From: Acidobacteriota bacterium
GTDB lineage: Bacteria; Acidobacteriota; UBA6911; RPQK01; JACQSY01
Direction: 5' to 3'
NCBI GenBank assembly: GCA_016211085.1
Contig: JACQSY010000015.1
Span: 1-64,000 of the forward strand
DNA: 64,000 nt
In this document: positions 6,016 through 34,041 of the stretch, one piece after another
Position numbering within the stretch: position 1 is the first letter of the stretch
Layout of the letters: every line of letters begins with the position of its first letter
Made by a program: the position numbers and the translations under genes
Notes under the pieces: generated by a model
Seen by the model: only the letters and a program-made list of their open reading frames with translations
Told to the model about the DNA's origin: nothing
The model's database searches: none

Positions 6016-6455
6016 CCGTGAACCTTATCCGTGGTGAAGATTCTTGCCAAAAAATCCTTGACCCGTTCCTCCACTTGGTTTCGGACAATTCGAAAAGCCT
6101 TGACGCGTTCCCAAGGGATTCCGCGGACTTGAACAGGATCTGCAATAGGCCAATGCTCCGTTCGGACTCCGGCGGGTAAAGCAGGGCAGGCGTCGCGCGC
6201 ATCACCGCACAAGGTGATTATGTAATCGAAACTCTGGAGGTCCTTGGACGAGAGCGGGTCTGAGGTCTGGTGAGAAATGTCGACCCCGACCTCGTTCATC
6301 ACTTGAATGGTATGAGGGTTGATACCAACAGGAGCTAACCCGGCGCTGTCTGCGTGCACCCGGTCACCCCCGTAATAACGTGCGAAACCTTCAGCCATTT
6401 GACTCCGCGCTGAATTGCCGGTGCAGACAAAAAGGATCCTGCGTTTCCTGCCCAT
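6012..6455 (-). CDS. arsC: Thioredoxin-type arsenate reductase / low-Mr phosphatase family
   Basis: The protein has 147 residues from the ATG at 6455. It shows the low-molecular-weight phosphatase P-loop FVCTGNSARSQMAEG (Cys11) and LCGDARDACP with Cys83 and Cys90. Three cysteines so placed match the thioredoxin-coupled arsenate reductase (C10/C82/C89 in S. aureus ArsC) rather than a plain tyrosine phosphatase, which lacks the second and third. The substrate would be arsenate, reduced to arsenite for export. No arsenite pump or ArsR gene is nearby; the partner is a small lipoprotein. A TTG two codons upstream (6461) is possible, and TACAAT lies just before it (6468-6473), so the mRNA leader may be very short. 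Confidence 0.85.
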   Translation of the reverse strand: MGRKRRILFVCTGNSARSQMAEGFARYYGGDRVHADSAGLAPVGINPHTIQVMNEVGVDISHQTSDPLSSKDLQSFDYIITLCGDARDACPALPAGVRTEHWPIADPVQVRGIPWERVKAFRIVRNQVEERVKDFLARIFTTDKVHG

Positions 6456-12625: not shown

Positions 12626-14581
12626 TCAGGAAAAGAAGGCGAAGTGTTCAAGAAGATTCTGCAACCAGATCGCCCACTTGAGCGCCCACTTTCGTGCAGC
12701 CGACTTACTCGCCGGTTTCCGTACCCAGCTGTTGTTGGTGTAATTCACGTCCAGCGCCAGCTTCCCGTCGGGATCAACTTCAACCAGCCTTATGGGAGAC
12801 TTCTTGCGAAAATCAAAGCGCGTCCAGCGTGACTGTCCATCCCAGATCTCACGGACTACCGTGGCGTCGGAGAACTCCACCCTCACTTCAACGGGGAAAA
12901 CTCCTTCTCCCCAGCGCCTGAGATGCACGGACTGCAGCCCATTGCCGAGATCCGTAACCGCATCGACAGAATAATCAAAGACGTGTGAGCTACGGTAAGT
13001 CTGGTTCCAGAACCATGAGAAATCTTCCCCGGCCACCTCATGCACCACGTTAAAGAAATCTTCAGCTCGAGGATGCTTGAAGCGCCATCGGGAGAAGTAC
13101 GTTTGAAGAATAGAGCGGAACTTGCCCCACCCCAGGTGTCGTTCCAGCGTGATCAGCATCAGGTCCGGCTTTGTATACGAATTCACCGTATACGCCCCGG
13201 GCCCGTAAACACGGGTGAGGCCGGTTGCATCCGCAGAACGACCGCGCCGCGCCGCCGGCCCATACTGCCATGCGGGCGTCGCCATCACGTCCAGTTTAAG
13301 CTCTGATTCAAAAGTGCCCAGCCCGCTGGCGGGGTGGTCCGATTGGAATATTCCTTCGAAAAGCAGCGGGATAAAACCTTCGAAGTAACGGCGCACCACC
13401 GGGGCAGACCCGAAAGCCTCACGCATGATCTTGCGAGTTGAGTACTCGGTCAACCCTTCGTCCAGCCAGGCATCCTCGAACTCATTATTGGCGACAACCG
13501 CATAGAAAAACTGGTGGCCGGTTTCATGGACTGTGACCTCCTCGGGGACCTGCGATCCAGGGAGGTTCAGCCAACGAGTGCCCCCGGTGATCAAAGTCGG
13601 GTACTCCATACCCCCGCTGTTGGAAAGATATGCGGGATCGATAATAGTCAAATGTCCGTACGGATATTCTCCTAACCATTCGCCAAAGTATTTCAAAGCC
13701 GTCTTCGCGGCGGTGAAGTACCTGCTTTCCTGCCCCAGATGATCCAGCATCAACAGTAACCGCAGATCGACGGCTTTTAAGTGCGGGTGCTCGAATCGGT
13801 CGCGAAATTCATAGAAGTCTGGACTGGCCACCCAGGCAAAATCAATCACCTGTTCCTGATAAAAATGGTGCGTAGCCGTGCCATCTTTGTTTTGGCGATG
13901 CGACTGCTGCCTGCCCGTTGCTCCTACGATCCAACCCCCGGGAACCACCAGCCGAACATCGTAGGTGCCGAATTCAGAAAAGAATTCCGTTTGAATGAAT
14001 TGGCGACAGTTCCAGGCTCCGGTTTTTTCAAAAACTCCCAGTTTGGGAAACCATTGGGCAATAAAGAAGTACTCTCCACGAGAGCCGGTCCGGGCAAAAG
14101 GACGGGGAACCTTGATTTTGAATTCGACTTGAATCTCAATGGTTTCGCCAGGCTTCACCGGCCTGGGGAGTATAACCTTCATAACGGTCCGATCATGCGG
14201 ATTGCCGTCATCAGGCTGGATATATTGAATGGCTGAAGTGAGGTCCAATTCTGCAAATCCATTGCCTGGCAGGATCTTCAGCCGACTGACGTCAATGGCA
14301 GCCCACTCGTTGGGACGCCACTGCTTGAGCGCTTCTTCCCTCATGCGGTTTGAATTAAGGAAGGAGCTTTGCGGGTTCAACCATGCATTGTAGTAAAGGT
14401 GAAATTGCAGATCGGAGGCGGCAAACGTCGTCTTATTTGACCAGCGAATGTGAGCTGAACCGGACACGGTTCGAGCGGCAGGATCCAGGCGCGCCTCCAG
14501 CTTGTAGTCAGCAGCCCATGCCTGGCTCAGTGCCGCCGAAGCAACAAGAATAAGAAGGACAATCCAGGTAGGGTCGCGCAC
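12626..14581 (-). CDS. Secreted M1-family (gluzincin) metallopeptidase
   Basis: The protein has 651 residues from the GTG at 14581. It has a signal peptide (WIVLLILVASAALSQAWA, then ADYKLEARLDP), a beta-rich N-terminal domain and the zinc site HETGHQFFYAV near residue 350. The second Glu is 18 residues on, in DAWLDEGLTEYSTRKI. The GAMEN exopeptidase motif is replaced by NSGGMEYP, as in many bacterial M1-like proteins, so aminopeptidase activity is likely but not certain. Earlier in-frame codons exist, but they translate a dispersed repeat (see 14605-14650) rather than protein-like sequence, which is why the start next to the signal peptide was chosen. Confidence 0.87.
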   Translation of the reverse strand: MRDPTWIVLLILVASAALSQAWAADYKLEARLDPAARTVSGSAHIRWSNKTTFAASDLQFHLYYNAWLNPQSSFLNSNRMREEALKQWRPNEWAAIDVSRLKILPGNGFAELDLTSAIQYIQPDDGNPHDRTVMKVILPRPVKPGETIEIQVEFKIKVPRPFARTGSRGEYFFIAQWFPKLGVFEKTGAWNCRQFIQTEFFSEFGTYDVRLVVPGGWIVGATGRQQSHRQNKDGTATHHFYQEQVIDFAWVASPDFYEFRDRFEHPHLKAVDLRLLLMLDHLGQESRYFTAAKTALKYFGEWLGEYPYGHLTIIDPAYLSNSGGMEYPTLITGGTRWLNLPGSQVPEEVTVHETGHQFFYAVVANNEFEDAWLDEGLTEYSTRKIMREAFGSAPVVRRYFEGFIPLLFEGIFQSDHPASGLGTFESELKLDVMATPAWQYGPAARRGRSADATGLTRVYGPGAYTVNSYTKPDLMLITLERHLGWGKFRSILQTYFSRWRFKHPRAEDFFNVVHEVAGEDFSWFWNQTYRSSHVFDYSVDAVTDLGNGLQSVHLRRWGEGVFPVEVRVEFSDATVVREIWDGQSRWTRFDFRKKSPIRLVEVDPDGKLALDVNYTNNSWVRKPASKSAARKWALKWAIWLQNLLEHFAFFS

Positions 14582-27934: not shown

Positions 27935-28516
27935 TCAAGGCTGCAGCGCCTCGTGCAGCTTCGCCAGGGCCTTGCCACGATGGGAAATAAGGTTCTTTTC
28001 TTTTCTACTCAATTCCCCAAAAGTGCGACCAAGGGGTGGATACCAGAAGATCGGATCATAACCAAAACCGCTGGTACCCCGCGGCTCTTTGATAATTTTC
28101 CCTTCCACCGTGGCTTCGACTTCCAAGATTTGTTCTGGTGAAAAAAAGCACAGGGCACAAACAAACCGCGCCGACCGCTCGTGCTCTCCGAAACCCTTTA
28201 GTTCACGCAGGAGCCGCTGAATTCTCTCAGCATCAGTGGCTGCGTATCGCTTTGAATAAATACCTGGAGCCCCACCCAGGGCATCGACGCACAAACCTGA
28301 GTCGTCCGCGAGGGTCGGCAATCCTGTCAGCTGAGAATAGTGCTGCGCCTTGAGACGGGCGTTCTCACGGAAGGTAGTTCCGTCTTCTGACGGGGGTGGG
28401 AGGCCGCGAAAATCTTGCAGCGAAGCAAAATCAAAGGGGAGAGAAACCAGCGCGGATCGAAACTCCTCGAGCTTGCCCTTATTGCTGGTTGCCAAGAGCA
28501 ATCGTGAGCGGTTCAC
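27935..28516 (-). CDS. rdgB: XTP/dITP pyrophosphatase (RdgB/HAM1)
   Basis: The enzyme has 193 residues from the GTG at 28516. It hydrolyses non-canonical purine NTPs (XTP, dITP, ITP) to the monophosphates and so keeps them out of nucleic acids. Motifs are [63 protein letters not shown] and [11 protein letters not shown] at 28534 is an alternative start; either way the 5' end lies inside the 3' end of rph. rph-rdgB is a widely conserved pair. Confidence 0.92.
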
Positions 28517-29264
28517 TCTGAAAGAGATCGTCAACAGTACCCAGATTTTCCCGCAGCACTTCGCGCTGGTGCATGTTCAGCTGGCGAATTCCGAGCGATG
28601 CCAGTTCCAGAAGAGACTCAAGTTGTGTCTGCGAAAAGGGTTTTCCTTCTGCTGTACCTTGTATTTCTACCAACATCTCGCGTCCCGTCATGACGACGTT
28701 CATGTCCACTTCAGCTTTGGAATCTTCCTCGTAATTCAAGTCCAGGCGTGCTTCACCATCGACCATGCCCACGCTCACAGCAGCCACCGAATCGAGCAGC
28801 GGGGGCTTGGGCAAGAGGTTTTGGCGTTTCAGGCGGGCCAGAGCCATCGCCATAGCTACAAACGCTCCAGTAATGGAGGCGGTGCGGGTTCCGCCGTCGG
28901 CCGAGATTACATCGCAATCCATCCACAGCGTGCGCTCACCGATGGCCTGCATGTCCACCACAGAACGCAAAGAGCGGCCGATCAATCTTTGAATTTCGTG
29001 AGTCCTTCCTGAGGGTCGTCCCTTGGAGGCTTCCCGAACCATCCGCTCTCCGGTTGAGCGAGGAATCATCCCATATTCGGAAGTGATCCAACCTTGCCCT
29101 TTGCCCCTCAGAAATTGTGGGACTTTGTCTTCAATACTGGCGGTGCAGATCACCTTGGTCTCTCCACACTGAATCAATGTGGATCCTTCTGCATGCTTGA
29201 TGTAATCGGGAAAGATCATGATGGAGCGGAGCTCGTTTGCTCGTCTGGTACCATTTCGCGGCAT
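28479..29264 (-). CDS. rph: Ribonuclease PH
   Basis: The enzyme has 261 residues and is a phosphate-dependent 3'-5' exoribonuclease that trims tRNA 3' ends before CCA repair. Motifs are the N-terminal [12 protein letters not shown] (RPH-type RxDGRxxxxLRP variant), [59 protein letters not shown] (given as region 65-105), and [15 protein letters not shown]. It overlaps the rdgB start and begins 11 bases after the GerMN gene. With cca and pth in the window, the tRNA maturation and recycling set is well represented. Confidence 0.93.
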
Positions 29265-29275
29265 CGCCAGACATT

Positions 29276-29908
29276 TTACATGAACGGTTCGTACAGCGAA
29301 ACATGGCCGGCAAAAGTCGGCTGCTCCCGGCCTTCAATGATGAATTTCACCCTTTTCACCTGACTCAGATTAACGCTAAGGGAACGGACAATGGAATAAA
29401 TTGCAGCCAATTCAGCGCTGATTCCTCCTGCTAACTGTTCTGAAGCCTCCCGGGACAGGTCCACCACTGCTGTTCCTTCTTCCAGGAGATAAATTTGGCG
29501 CAGTTTCGCCTGCTCGGGGAAAAGTCTGGGGTGATCGTTGCTCCCTTTGAGCAGCTCGTTCACGACCTGGCGAGCGTCCAGTTGCACATCGCCCGTCTTG
29601 AACACCGACCTTTCCTCAGGCACCAGGAAACCTTCCTCTGAGGGTTGAGAGCCACTCTTGTAAAAATAAAGCTGAACCTTTAGGAGGCCGCTGCTCTGAG
29701 CCTGGAGCACGCTCGAGTCCACATCCATCTTACTTTCGCTGGCGCGGCGCAGTTCCATTTGATGGCTGCGCTCCTGGTAGTACAGGAATCCAAAAAGCAA
29801 CACGATTGCAGCCAACAGGAGTATGCCGACCAGGACCTTTCGGGCTTCACGCCTCGCACCGCGTACCGGAGAGCTGTCGGGAACAGATGAAGAACGTTTC
29901 TTTTTCAT
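29276..29908 (-). CDS. Membrane-anchored GerMN-domain protein
   Basis: The protein has 210 residues. A basic N-terminus (MKKKRSS..RREARK) and one membrane helix ([20 protein letters not shown]) precede a C-terminal GerMN domain (about residues 75-205; [52 protein letters not shown]). GerMN domains occur in spore-germination protein GerM but also widely in non-sporulating bacteria, where they accompany cell-wall amidases. Here the amidase gene is immediately upstream with a 4-base overlap, which fits a shared role in peptidoglycan remodelling. Confidence 0.85.
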
Positions 29909-31368
29909 TCCACCGCCTTGAAGAACCGCAGCAGCGCAGCCACTATGGTGGCGGCTATCTGGTCCTGAAAATCCGGTGACGCGAGCTTCTCCGAATCCTC
30001 ACTGTTGGTCAGGAACCCAACCTCAACCAAAATGGCCGGGCTATTAAGCGGAGCCAGGAGTGCCAAAGGCGCCTCCACTACCCCGTTCTCCACGCCATAG
30101 AGAGCATTCAGCTCTTTTTGCACCTCGGCGGCAAGCTTTTTACTATTTTCCAAATTAAAGCGTTGAGCTTCCCTCCACAGAATGAGCCCCTTATCGGGCC
30201 CGGGTGGGGTGTCGGAACCGTAACGTTGAACATAGACTACGGGACCGCGAACCTCCGGTGACGGAGATCCTCCCGCGTGGATACTGATAAAGGCTCGCGA
30301 CCTGGCTGAATTGGCCGCGGCGCTACGTTGTTCCAAGGACAGCTCGGCGTCACGGCTCCGGGTTAGGAAAGCCGCCAACCCGCCCGACTTGAGTCGTGCA
30401 CCAATCCGCTCTGAAATTTTCACCGCCAGGTTTTTCTCGACCACGTCCGGGGTGATCAGTACCCCATAATCTTCTCCGCCGTGTCCCGGATCAATAGCGA
30501 TGCTGTTCGACACAGCGAGGCGCTGAAAAACCAAAGGCGCTTCATCCGGTATGGATCGCGCCGGCGCTGGAGGAGGCTCCGGTGCCGCCTCGGGAACCGC
30601 AGGTTTGGCTTCGGGTGGAACGACCAAAACCGGTGGGGCATAAAGGTCGATAACCTTCCGATCCGGACCACTCAACGCGAATTCCCGAAAATTGTAATAC
30701 TCAGGCCCCTTGTAAATACGAAGCGCGCCCCTCGCATCTTTGGGTCTCAAATCCATGGAGGCGATGATCCGGGCATCAGCGTGGGTTGAAGGCACCTCCG
30801 GCTCCAGCAGATAGTCGCCGAACTCGACCTGAAGATAATTCCGGAACTCCCTGACCCGAACGGGTGTTTTTTGACTGGGCTGGAAAACCACTCGAACGTG
30901 ATCGGGATAATTGGCAATGAGCGTTTTGATTCGGTTAACTTCGAGAGGGCTGGAGCGGTAGCTGCGATCCGCAATTCTCTCCAGTCGTAAGCTTAAAATC
31001 AACGGGGCCGCAACGGTAAGGAAATCTTCCGAAACGTACCAGTCCTTGTTTTTCCGTTTCCAGACCGGCTCGGAAAGAAGGATATATTGTTCTTCAAACT
31101 GGACCAGCGGACGCCCATGGGTCAACACCAGTCGCCCACGAGGACCGGTGACGCTGATCTGCTCCTTCTCCTCCTCCAGCTTCAAATCGAAAACGTTGGC
31201 AATGTCCTCCAGATCAAAATAGGCACGGCCTTCCATTTCGCGAAAGTCCACGCGGTGTCGTTTGGCGCCAATGGTGATTTCAACGTCTTTGACCGCAGGC
31301 TGCAGGTAAACGGCGGACACGCCAAAGATCAGAAAGGACAAAACTACAATCAGGGAAAAGCGCGACAT
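29905..31368 (-). CDS. N-acetylmuramoyl-L-alanine amidase (Amidase_3) with N-terminal wall-binding region
   Basis: The protein has 487 residues, with an N-terminal signal/anchor (FSLIVVLSFLIFGVSAVYL). The first 200 residues resemble copper-amine-oxidase-N/AMIN-type beta domains (IGAKRHRVDFREMEGRAYF, VRVVFQPSQK), followed by a proline-rich linker. The catalytic domain (about 275-485) has the zinc ligands in IDPGHGGEDYG, EKNLAVKI and SIHAGG, and the Glu in ILVEVGFLTN. It cuts the bond between MurNAc and L-Ala in peptidoglycan, in the periplasm during septum splitting. It starts 17 bases after lpxC on the same strand. Confidence 0.91.
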   Translation of the reverse strand: MSRFSLIVVLSFLIFGVSAVYLQPAVKDVEITIGAKRHRVDFREMEGRAYFDLEDIANVFDLKLEEEKEQISVTGPRGRLVLTHGRPLVQFEEQYILLSEPVWKRKNKDWYVSEDFLTVAAPLILSLRLERIADRSYRSSPLEVNRIKTLIANYPDHVRVVFQPSQKTPVRVREFRNYLQVEFGDYLLEPEVPSTHADARIIASMDLRPKDARGALRIYKGPEYYNFREFALSGPDRKVIDLYAPPVLVVPPEAKPAVPEAAPEPPPAPARSIPDEAPLVFQRLAVSNSIAIDPGHGGEDYGVLITPDVVEKNLAVKISERIGARLKSGGLAAFLTRSRDAELSLEQRSAAANSARSRAFISIHAGGSPSPEVRGPVVYVQRYGSDTPPGPDKGLILWREAQRFNLENSKKLAAEVQKELNALYGVENGVVEAPLALLAPLNSPAILVEVGFLTNSEDSEKLASPDFQDQIAATIVAALLRFFKAVE

Positions 31369-31379
31369 ATCAGCTCGGA

Positions 31380-31433
31380 GATAGGCTATTCGTTCACCAC
31401 GTTTTCTGAAATCTGGTGAACGAATAACCTATC
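31380..31433 (-). repeat. 20-bp inverted repeat at the 3' end of lpxC
   Basis: The arm at 31380-31399 (GATAGGCTATTCGTTCACCA) and the arm at 31414-31433 (TGGTGAACGAATAACCTATC) are inverted copies with one mismatch, 14 bases apart. The repeat covers the last coding codons of lpxC and continues 6 bases past its stop. In RNA it would form a very stable hairpin between lpxC and the amidase gene; there is no T-run, so it is not a standard terminator. Confidence 0.85.
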
Positions 31434-32279
31434 CCCTTTAATTTTACGGCATGCTTTGGGACTGCGTGCCAGCGCAGTGGCCAGATCGGTATGAAGGGCG
31501 TGCCCTGCCTTGTAGGCGCGCACGTGGCCCAGGATAGGATATCCACAGAGGGAAATGTCACCGATTAAATCCAGCACCTTGTGCCTCACAAACTCATCAG
31601 ATGCTCTCAACTTTCCGTTCATGATATCAGTCCGGCTGAGAACCACGGCGTTGTCGAAAGAGCCTCCACGGATGAGACCTTTCTGCCGCAACTCTTCCAC
31701 CTCATCGTAAAACCCAAAAGTCCGGGCAAATGAAATCTCTTGCTCGTAGGTCACCGGATCCAGCACGAAATCAAGCTTCTGCTTTCCAATGGCGGGATGG
31801 CTGAAATCAATCTCATACGTGATGCGAAAATGAGGAGCCGGTTCGACGGTTATATATTTGTCTCCTTCCGAGATACGAATGGGACGTTCGACACAGAGAT
31901 AGGTCCTCTCTCGATGCTGCTCCACGGTTCCTGCACTTTTGATCGCCTCAACAAAAGGCTGAGCTGAGCCATCCAGAATGGGAACTTCCAGGGAATTGAT
32001 GTCGACGTAAAGATTGTCTATGCTGAGGCCATACAGAGCTGAAAGCAGGTGTTCCACGGTTGACAGCATCACCCCCCGCTTCATCAGCGTCGTCGCCAAC
32101 ACCACACGCGAGACTCGATCGCGACGCGCTTCAATCTCGAAATTCTGCAGGTCCACCCGCCGAAAAATGATCCCCGTATCTTCGGGCGCAGGGCGCAATT
32201 CAATCTGCACATCACAGCCCGTGTGAAGCCCGATCCCGCAAAGTCGAACCGGGTTTTTTAAAGTCATTTGCATTTTCAC
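31386..32279 (-). CDS. lpxC: UDP-3-O-acyl-N-acetylglucosamine deacetylase
   Basis: The enzyme has 297 residues and is the zinc enzyme that commits UDP-GlcNAc to lipid A synthesis, showing that the cell has an outer membrane with lipopolysaccharide or lipid A. Motifs are LKNPVRLCGIGLHTG, STVEHLLSALYGLSIDN (zinc His), FARTFGF, KVLDLIGDISL and the GHVRAYKAGHALHTDL tail with the catalytic His. The GTG at 32279 aligns with the usual N-terminus (M-x-x-Q-x-TLK). The last residues (RLFVHQISENVVNE) are encoded by an inverted repeat. Confidence 0.95.
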   Translation of the reverse strand: MKMQMTLKNPVRLCGIGLHTGCDVQIELRPAPEDTGIIFRRVDLQNFEIEARRDRVSRVVLATTLMKRGVMLSTVEHLLSALYGLSIDNLYVDINSLEVPILDGSAQPFVEAIKSAGTVEQHRERTYLCVERPIRISEGDKYITVEPAPHFRITYEIDFSHPAIGKQKLDFVLDPVTYEQEISFARTFGFYDEVEELRQKGLIRGGSFDNAVVLSRTDIMNGKLRASDEFVRHKVLDLIGDISLCGYPILGHVRAYKAGHALHTDLATALARSPKACRKIKGDRLFVHQISENVVNE

Positions 32280-32376: not shown

Positions 32377-33942
32377 CTATTGTGGATTAAATGGAACAGG
32401 GAGCGCGGCGCGAGGCTGGAGAGTCTGGAAGAGAGACATGAACCCCGTATAAAGATAACCCACGGTAAACAAAAGCAGGAAAGGAATGGTTCCGTAAATC
32501 CCTGTGTCCAGTGAATACAGCACCATCAGGGCAAAGTAGAGACCAAGACTTACTTCGATCCAGGGGAGAAAACCTACGCTGGCACGGTACCGTTTAGGAC
32601 GCCAGTCATCCTCGCGGTTCTGAATACAAAACTTTGGTGTTCGAATGAAAGAAGAATCAATGCCAAGCAACGCTTCCAGGACGGCCTTGGTGTTGCTCAC
32701 CGACAGACCAATGCCGACGCTCATCAGGAAGGGCAGGTACTTTATTCGAGACTTCCAGTCGGGAGAAACTTCGCGCTGGGAAATAACGTAAAAGGAACTG
32801 ACCGAGAAGGTGGCAGCCGTAAACAAGGGCAAATCAATCAGCAAAAGCTCAAACCAGCCCTGATTAAAGCGAATGATCAAAGCAGGGAACAGCAGCAGTC
32901 CCAGAAGGATCATCAGCGGATAAGCAATGTTGGCCGTGAGGTGAAAAAAAGCCTCGACTTTAATCGGCAGCGGCAAATCGCCCATCAAGATCTTGGGGAG
33001 GATTTTCTTACCGGTTTGGATCGAGCCTTTTGCCCAGCGGTATTGCTGCGATTTGAACGAGTTCATCTCAACCGGGATCTCCGCGGGAGCAGCGGGCTCT
33101 GGAAGGAATATAAACTTCCATCCTTTGATTTGAGCCCGATAACTAAGATCCAGGTCCTCTGTGAGCGTGTCGTGCTCCCAGCCGCCCGATTCCTCGATGG
33201 CCTTGCGCCGCCACACCCCTGCTGTGCCGTTGAAATTGAAGAAGCGCCCGGAACGATTACGCGTTCCGCTCTCCATGATGAAGTGTCCGTCCAACAGAAT
33301 GGATTGCACTTTGGTAAGCAGGGAGTAGTCACGGTTGATATGGTCCCAACGCATCTGAACCATCCCCACCTTGGGATCTGAGAAGAAATGGATGGTTTCA
33401 TTCAAGGTGTTGGGCCGCGGTGAAAAATCGGCGTCGAAAATCGCGATGAATTCACCCGTTGCAAGCTGCAGCCCATACTCGAGAGCCCCCGCTTTAAAGC
33501 CGTTACGATTAAAACGCCGGATATAACGTATGTCGTAGCCAAGCGCCGCATACTTTCGTACGTGGGCTTCCGCCACCGAGGCGGTTTCATCTGTGGAATC
33601 ATCGAGCACTTGAATCTCGAGCAGGTGGCGAGGGTAATTTAAACGACAAACCGAATCTATCAAACGCTCCACCACATACATCTCGTTGAAGATGGGGAGC
33701 TGCACCGTAATACGCGGAAGTTCGCTCAACTCGGCCAGCGGCCGAGGCGTGTTGTCGCGATACTTGAAGAAGAGATACACCAGGTGATATCGATGCAACC
33801 CGTAGATTGCAAGGATCGTGAGCACGCTGAAGTAAGCAATCAGGATGGTCCAGTCAAAAGGAGTATTCTGGTAAAGGTACGAGAGGTTGTCGGTTTCCAG
33901 GAACCTCTGCAGCGGGGAGCGCTCCGGCCCAAAGAAGTCCAT
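32377..33942 (-). CDS. Membrane glycosyltransferase family 2 (cellulose-synthase-like)
   Basis: The enzyme has 521 residues. One N-terminal membrane helix region (about 28-50), then a cytoplasmic GT-A domain with [14 protein letters not shown] (D1), AIFDADFSP (D2), [16 protein letters not shown] (catalytic Asp) and QQYRWAKGS (QxxRW), followed by several C-terminal helices. This architecture makes it a processive beta-glycosyltransferase that polymerises and exports a glycan. The sugar is not predictable; no BcsB, PilZ domain or partner gene is adjacent. A consensus promoter lies about 70 bases upstream. Confidence 0.9.
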
Positions 33943-34013: not shown

Positions 34014-34041
34014 ATTATACTGATTCCGTACGCGTTGTCAA
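34014..34041 (-). promoter_or_regulatory. Consensus sigma70 promoter for the glycosyltransferase gene
   Basis: On the minus strand, perfect TTGACA (34041-34036) and perfect TATAAT (34019-34014) are separated by 16 bases. The predicted leader to the ATG at 33942 is about 65 bases. It is the cleanest promoter in the window. Confidence 0.8.

Follow-up and report, generated by a model that had tools for sequence, protein, structure and literature searches.

A lineage-specific hairpin over the lpxC stop codon of an acidobacterium and its possible role in tying translation of the downstream amidase to lpxC

Translational coupling between neighbouring genes is explained by RNA unfolding or by reinitiation in a review (PMC12548453), where the phage f1 VII–IX pair is described with a long hairpin that ends just upstream of the coupled gene. 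Stable structure located just after stop codons is reported, in a study on ribosome termination structures (PMC7518266), to inhibit reinitiation and to be depleted in gene pairs less than 25 nt apart, from which insulation rather than coupling would be expected. Leaderless genes have a TATAAT box shortly before the start codon, and Acidobacteria are among the bacteria that contain them, as stated in PMC3160421. Template switching can create perfect stems by making a reverse-complement copy in one step, according to two papers on such quasipalindrome mutations (PMC8794818; PMC7202029).

Here we describe a hairpin at the junction of lpxC and an N-acetylmuramoyl-L-alanine amidase gene in the window, which is the whole analysed stretch of 64,000 nucleotides of an acidobacterial contig. 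The hairpin is real, beyond chance and lineage-specific. By analogy with the models given in the review (PMC12548453), the junction would fit coupling by either RNA unfolding or reinitiation. As described there for phage f1 VII–IX, a long hairpin ends just upstream of the second gene, but the spacing here is +17 nt rather than −4 and the coupling is predicted. With ribosome termination structures (PMC7518266) the hairpin has in common stable mRNA folding at an operon-internal stop codon; in E. coli those structures lie downstream of the stop with a peak at about 5 nt, whereas the stem in the window straddles it. The relatives of this genome share the geometry of the leaderless-gene promoter as given in PMC3160421, with TATAAT 6–12 nt before the amidase start, whereas the box in the window is TATCTC and lies within the hairpin. 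The likeness to the template-switch cases described in PMC8794818 and PMC7202029 consists of a near-perfect local reverse-complement copy and a long stem, but here the ancestral state is deduced from relatives with only about 71% identity and the switch points are not locatable. The features of the junction are as follows.

31386..32279, minus strand: lpxC (TIGR00325, E 2.1e-94; Pfam LpxC)
31414..31436, minus strand: 5' arm of the stem in lpxC mRNA, 23 nt, codons of the GDRLFVHQ region (repeat search and folding)
31400..31413, minus strand: 14-nt loop separating the 23-bp arms, with three further predicted pairs inside (folding)
31377..31399, minus strand: 3' arm of the stem, comprising the VVNE codons, the lpxC stop and 9 nt of the junction (repeat search and folding)
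31386..31388, minus strand: lpxC stop codon TAG, within the 3' arm (sequence and ORF list)
31378..31383, minus strand: TATCTC, at the apparent place of TATAAT in the relatives (13 of 13 with the same gene order; locus comparison)
29905..31368, minus strand: N-acetylmuramoyl-L-alanine amidase (Amidase_3), starting 17 nt past the lpxC stop (ORF list and domain search)

The sequence-only reading of this DNA had placed an inverted repeat at 31380–31399 and 31414–31433, with one mismatch and a spacing of 14 bases, over the final codons and the stop of lpxC. These coordinates were recovered exactly, with the TAG inside the 3' arm. A repeat finder lengthened the arms to 28 nt (31377–31404 and 31409–31436, 86% complementary, spacer of 4 nt). 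On the lpxC (minus) strand the hairpin forms 23 uninterrupted pairs (31436–31377) and thus exceeds the 20-base arms described before, because the two positions that mismatch in the longer stem pair as G·U in the lpxC mRNA. This uninterrupted 23-bp stem exists on the sense strand only, and the folding energy of the 60-nt piece was −39.1 kcal/mol on the minus strand compared to −31.8 kcal/mol on the plus strand. The lpxC reading frame, which ends with ...FVHQISENVVNE, runs through the 5' arm and the loop into the 3' arm, where it takes up 14 of the 23 nt including the stop and leaves just 9 nt of the stem 3' of the stop codon. The end of the stem is separated from the amidase ATG by 8 nt, and the stable structure is thereby situated just before the downstream start. 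The amidase gene is overlapped by 4 nt by a gene with a GerMN domain, followed on the same strand by two more ORFs, which we take to be RNase PH and RdgB/HAM1. Together with the amidase and the GerMN protein they make up a compact minus-strand run at 27935–31368 of the window.

That so long a stem is most unlikely by chance had been proposed from the letters alone, and it was borne out by shuffles, recodings, a genome scan and a comparison of ORF ends; the stem is far beyond chance. None of 200 dinucleotide shuffles folded as well as the hairpin (z −4.6), and its energy was not matched by any of 3000 synonymous recodings that covered the final 22 codons with the stop. The top stem score in the first 1000 of these recodings was 16 compared to 17 for the native sequence, so a large part of the stem is already permitted by the peptide itself. 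In the host genome, 11 stems with a score of at least 11 were found in a scan for short-loop stems that covered the window and 20 further stretches (398,451 bases, about 11% of 3.54 Mb); the stem at the lpxC end was the highest with 17 and the next scored 13. The region from −50 to +25 around the lpxC end had the lowest energy of 303 ORF ends sampled from the genome (−37.2; mean −17.2, sd 5.2), and with a wider region of −60 to +60 the lpxC end fell outside the five lowest. In 651,860 bases of DNA from relatives, 50 stems had a score of at least 11 and ten a score of at least 17, several of the latter consisting of short repeated units in intergenic DNA. Long intergenic inverted repeats composed of such units, for example AAAGGGG or CTCAAGGAC, were also seen in two of the relatives' loci (L116 at 74–164, 6191–6275 and 13357–13439; L126 at 950–1030).

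Conservation was assessed in 40 related lpxC loci from 39 genomes, of which 16 loci belong to the same order. The host genome is the sole member of its family in the collection, its order comprises 18 genomes including the host, an lpxC match being found in 16, and the closest lpxC of a relative is about 71% identical. No stem with a score of at least 11 overlapped the lpxC stop in any of the 40 loci, and a conserved lpxC regulatory hairpin was ruled out on this ground. The proposal that the structure is tied to LpxC control as such found no support for the same reason. In a looser scan (score of at least 8; 33 loci including that of the window) other short stems were found, none of them resembling the hairpin at the lpxC end; one locus (L024) had a stem with a score of 9 overlapping the lpxC stop. 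Three loci had hairpins near the lpxC stop but not over it, namely L109 (+27 to +76, score 14), L117 (+108 to +142, score 12) and L125 (+240 to +340, score 12), and the amidase was not found in any of these three stretches, the contig of L117 ending 214 nt past lpxC. The repeat was single-copy in the genome, which is 87% complete, all other matches having E 0.4 or worse, and a dispersed repeat of the REP or MITE type or the end of a mobile element was ruled out accordingly. The other 37 genomes of the class had no match to the repeat within one mismatch; the exact pattern had no match in viral contigs, and among plasmids the sole match had E 2. The window had no match in Rfam 15 at the gathering score. 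In literature on lpxC hairpins or stop codons and on acidobacterial leaderless promoters, we found no report of this junction.

The amidase gene, together with the GerMN gene, follows lpxC in 13 of the 16 loci of the order; in two of the other three (L107 and L109) no amidase was found downstream, and the contig of the third (L117) ends 214 nt past lpxC. All 13 loci with the lpxC–amidase order (L102–L106, L108 and L110–L116, from 12 genomes, 7 genera and 4 families) carry an exact TATAAT ending 6–12 nt before the amidase start, the starts in the relatives having been chosen from the open frame and one of them being GTG. Judged from its position and sequence, this TATAAT is a putative conserved leaderless-type promoter of the amidase. 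In the host genome, TATAAT-like boxes were likewise enriched 5–9 nt before starts (16, with 266 ORFs covered) compared to 1–5 in each other 5-nt bin. The gap between lpxC and the amidase is 17 nt in the window and 41–1242 nt in the 13 relatives. At the corresponding place the window reads TATCTC, inside the 3' arm of the hairpin, and the position and a short likeness suggest that this place is homologous to the TATAAT of the relatives. In the window, the 70 nt ahead of the amidase ATG contained no TATAAT-like box (A2 and T6 kept, up to two mismatches), and the promoter scan gave no sigma-70-like promoter between lpxC and the amidase. The nearest −10-like box was TAAAAT at 31441–31446 (minus strand, one mismatch), 72 nt before the amidase ATG. 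It lies shortly before the 5' arm, so a transcript initiated at this box would carry the hairpin at its 5' end.

In E. coli the C-terminus of LpxC is a degron. Across the order of this acidobacterium the LpxC C-terminus was variable except for a short E-x-x-L-like motif, and nothing pointed to a conserved degron at its end. With 15 relatives aligned and the sixteenth (L105) read by eye, a Glu found in the LpxC tails of all 16 relatives of the order corresponds to a Gly in the window, and this position lies within the 5' arm. VN occurs at or near the LpxC end in 8 of the 16, and the window keeps it in the 3' arm. The 5' arm is therefore probably the derived one, and on these tail comparisons it was probably copied from the 3' arm in reverse complement. 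The Glu to Gly change in the 5' arm and the TATCTC in place of TATAAT are both new observations. The hairpin probably originated by template switching, although the nearest lpxC in the collection is only about 71% identical.

Our tentative explanation, which rests on folding models and on the comparison with relatives, is that a lineage-specific palindrome makes translation of the amidase depend on translation of lpxC. A template switch during replication would have copied the end of lpxC in reverse complement, and the new palindrome would have overwritten the codons immediately preceding the stop. In an lpxC–amidase transcript, the predicted 23-bp stem would then hold the lpxC stop, its end lying 8 nt ahead of the amidase start codon, and in its closed form it would impede initiation by new ribosomes at the amidase. 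A ribosome that has reached the lpxC stop would sit over the 3' arm, keep it open and terminate 17 nt short of the amidase ATG. Since a ribosome ending lpxC would have to open the stem at this distance from the ATG, amidase translation would depend on that of lpxC. Such coupling may replace the separate leaderless-type promoter of the relatives, which here reads TATCTC.

This reading is supported by the 23-bp stem on the sense strand, by the 17-nt gap and by the pairing before the amidase start, where the model pairs every base from −20 to −9 (probability of being unpaired 0.00). When the 5' arm was omitted from the model, most of the −20 to −9 region partly opened. It is further supported by the TATCTC in place of the box present in 13 of 13 relatives, with no promoter found between the genes, and by the probably derived 5' arm, the single copy of the repeat and its absence from the 37 class genomes. 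Counting against it, the amidase start codon does not lie within the stem, the bases around the start became somewhat more paired when the 5' arm was omitted, and both G·U pairs would fall on the sense strand by chance in one case out of four. The TAAAAT box 72 nt before the ATG might also act as an internal promoter, which would likewise count against coupling. It is unlikely, when taken as a whole, that one template switch both made the palindrome and altered the leaderless promoter of the amidase and in this way locked lipid A synthesis and the amidase together by translation. If this were true, one mutational step would have turned two separately promoted genes into a translationally coupled pair joining an envelope lipid enzyme and a peptidoglycan enzyme.

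Nearly as likely as coupling is that the hairpin is a neutral relic, a palindrome that arose in a dispensable LpxC tail by template switching or some other local rearrangement, is transcribed and opened by ribosomes and has no selected effect. The variable LpxC tail in the order, the lack of the stem in all 40 related loci and the strong stems elsewhere in the relatives (ten with a score of at least 17 per 651,860 bases) argue for such a relic. Its placement exactly at the junction and the altered promoter box argue against it, as does the finding that just two of the 23 positions deviate from a perfect match and that both of them still pair in the mRNA, although a young relic would look alike. 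If it is a relic only, the hairpin illustrates clearly that conserved regulation does not follow from the presence of a strong, non-chance hairpin in a key gene.

The sequence-only reading had suggested that the stem sets the ratio of LpxC to the amidase as an element of mRNA stability or processing. An effect on this ratio is plausible, because the junction of the relatives carries a putative amidase promoter box that is altered here; the position exactly at the lpxC–amidase junction and the greater stability of the stem on the mRNA strand also favour it. That the ratio is set by RNase III cleavage or by protection of a 3' end, which is close to the original idea, is rather unlikely. RNase III favours about two helical turns, which is about the length of the perfect 23-bp stem, and the genome encodes RNase III (TIGR02191, 240 bits), but cleavage of the 3' arm would harm the lpxC coding sequence at its end, and the stem is crossed by ribosomes. 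Taken together, the comparison with relatives makes the hairpin look like a lineage-specific accident that possibly ties lpxC and the amidase together, rather than conserved lpxC control.

Less likely still is that the stem acts as an insulator and lowers reinitiation on the amidase after lpxC, as the inhibition by ribosome termination structures reported in PMC7518266 would imply. The gap of 17 nt falls within the range below 25 nt in which those structures are depleted, their peak about 5 nt past the stop differs from the position found here, and a stem that straddles the stop would be opened by the terminating ribosome.

An intrinsic terminator of lpxC was ruled out, as the stem is followed by GAGCTGATATG on the lpxC strand. 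The earlier statement that there is no T-run applies to this strand but not to the plus strand, on which the stem is directly followed by TTTAATTTT (31437–31445), a terminator-like arrangement for an antisense RNA. That the repeat serves as such a plus-strand terminator, or as a DNA operator given that it covers the promoter place of the relatives, is very improbable: the stem is weaker on the plus strand (−31.8 compared to −39.1), the T-rich stretch is complementary to codons for R-K-I-K, the nearest upstream plus-strand genes end about 3.6 kb away, the terminator scan did not list it and the repeat is single-copy. Elsewhere in the window, the promoter scan found a perfect TTGACA-16-TATAAT at 34014–34041 (minus strand), upstream of the glycosyltransferase gene at 32377–33942.
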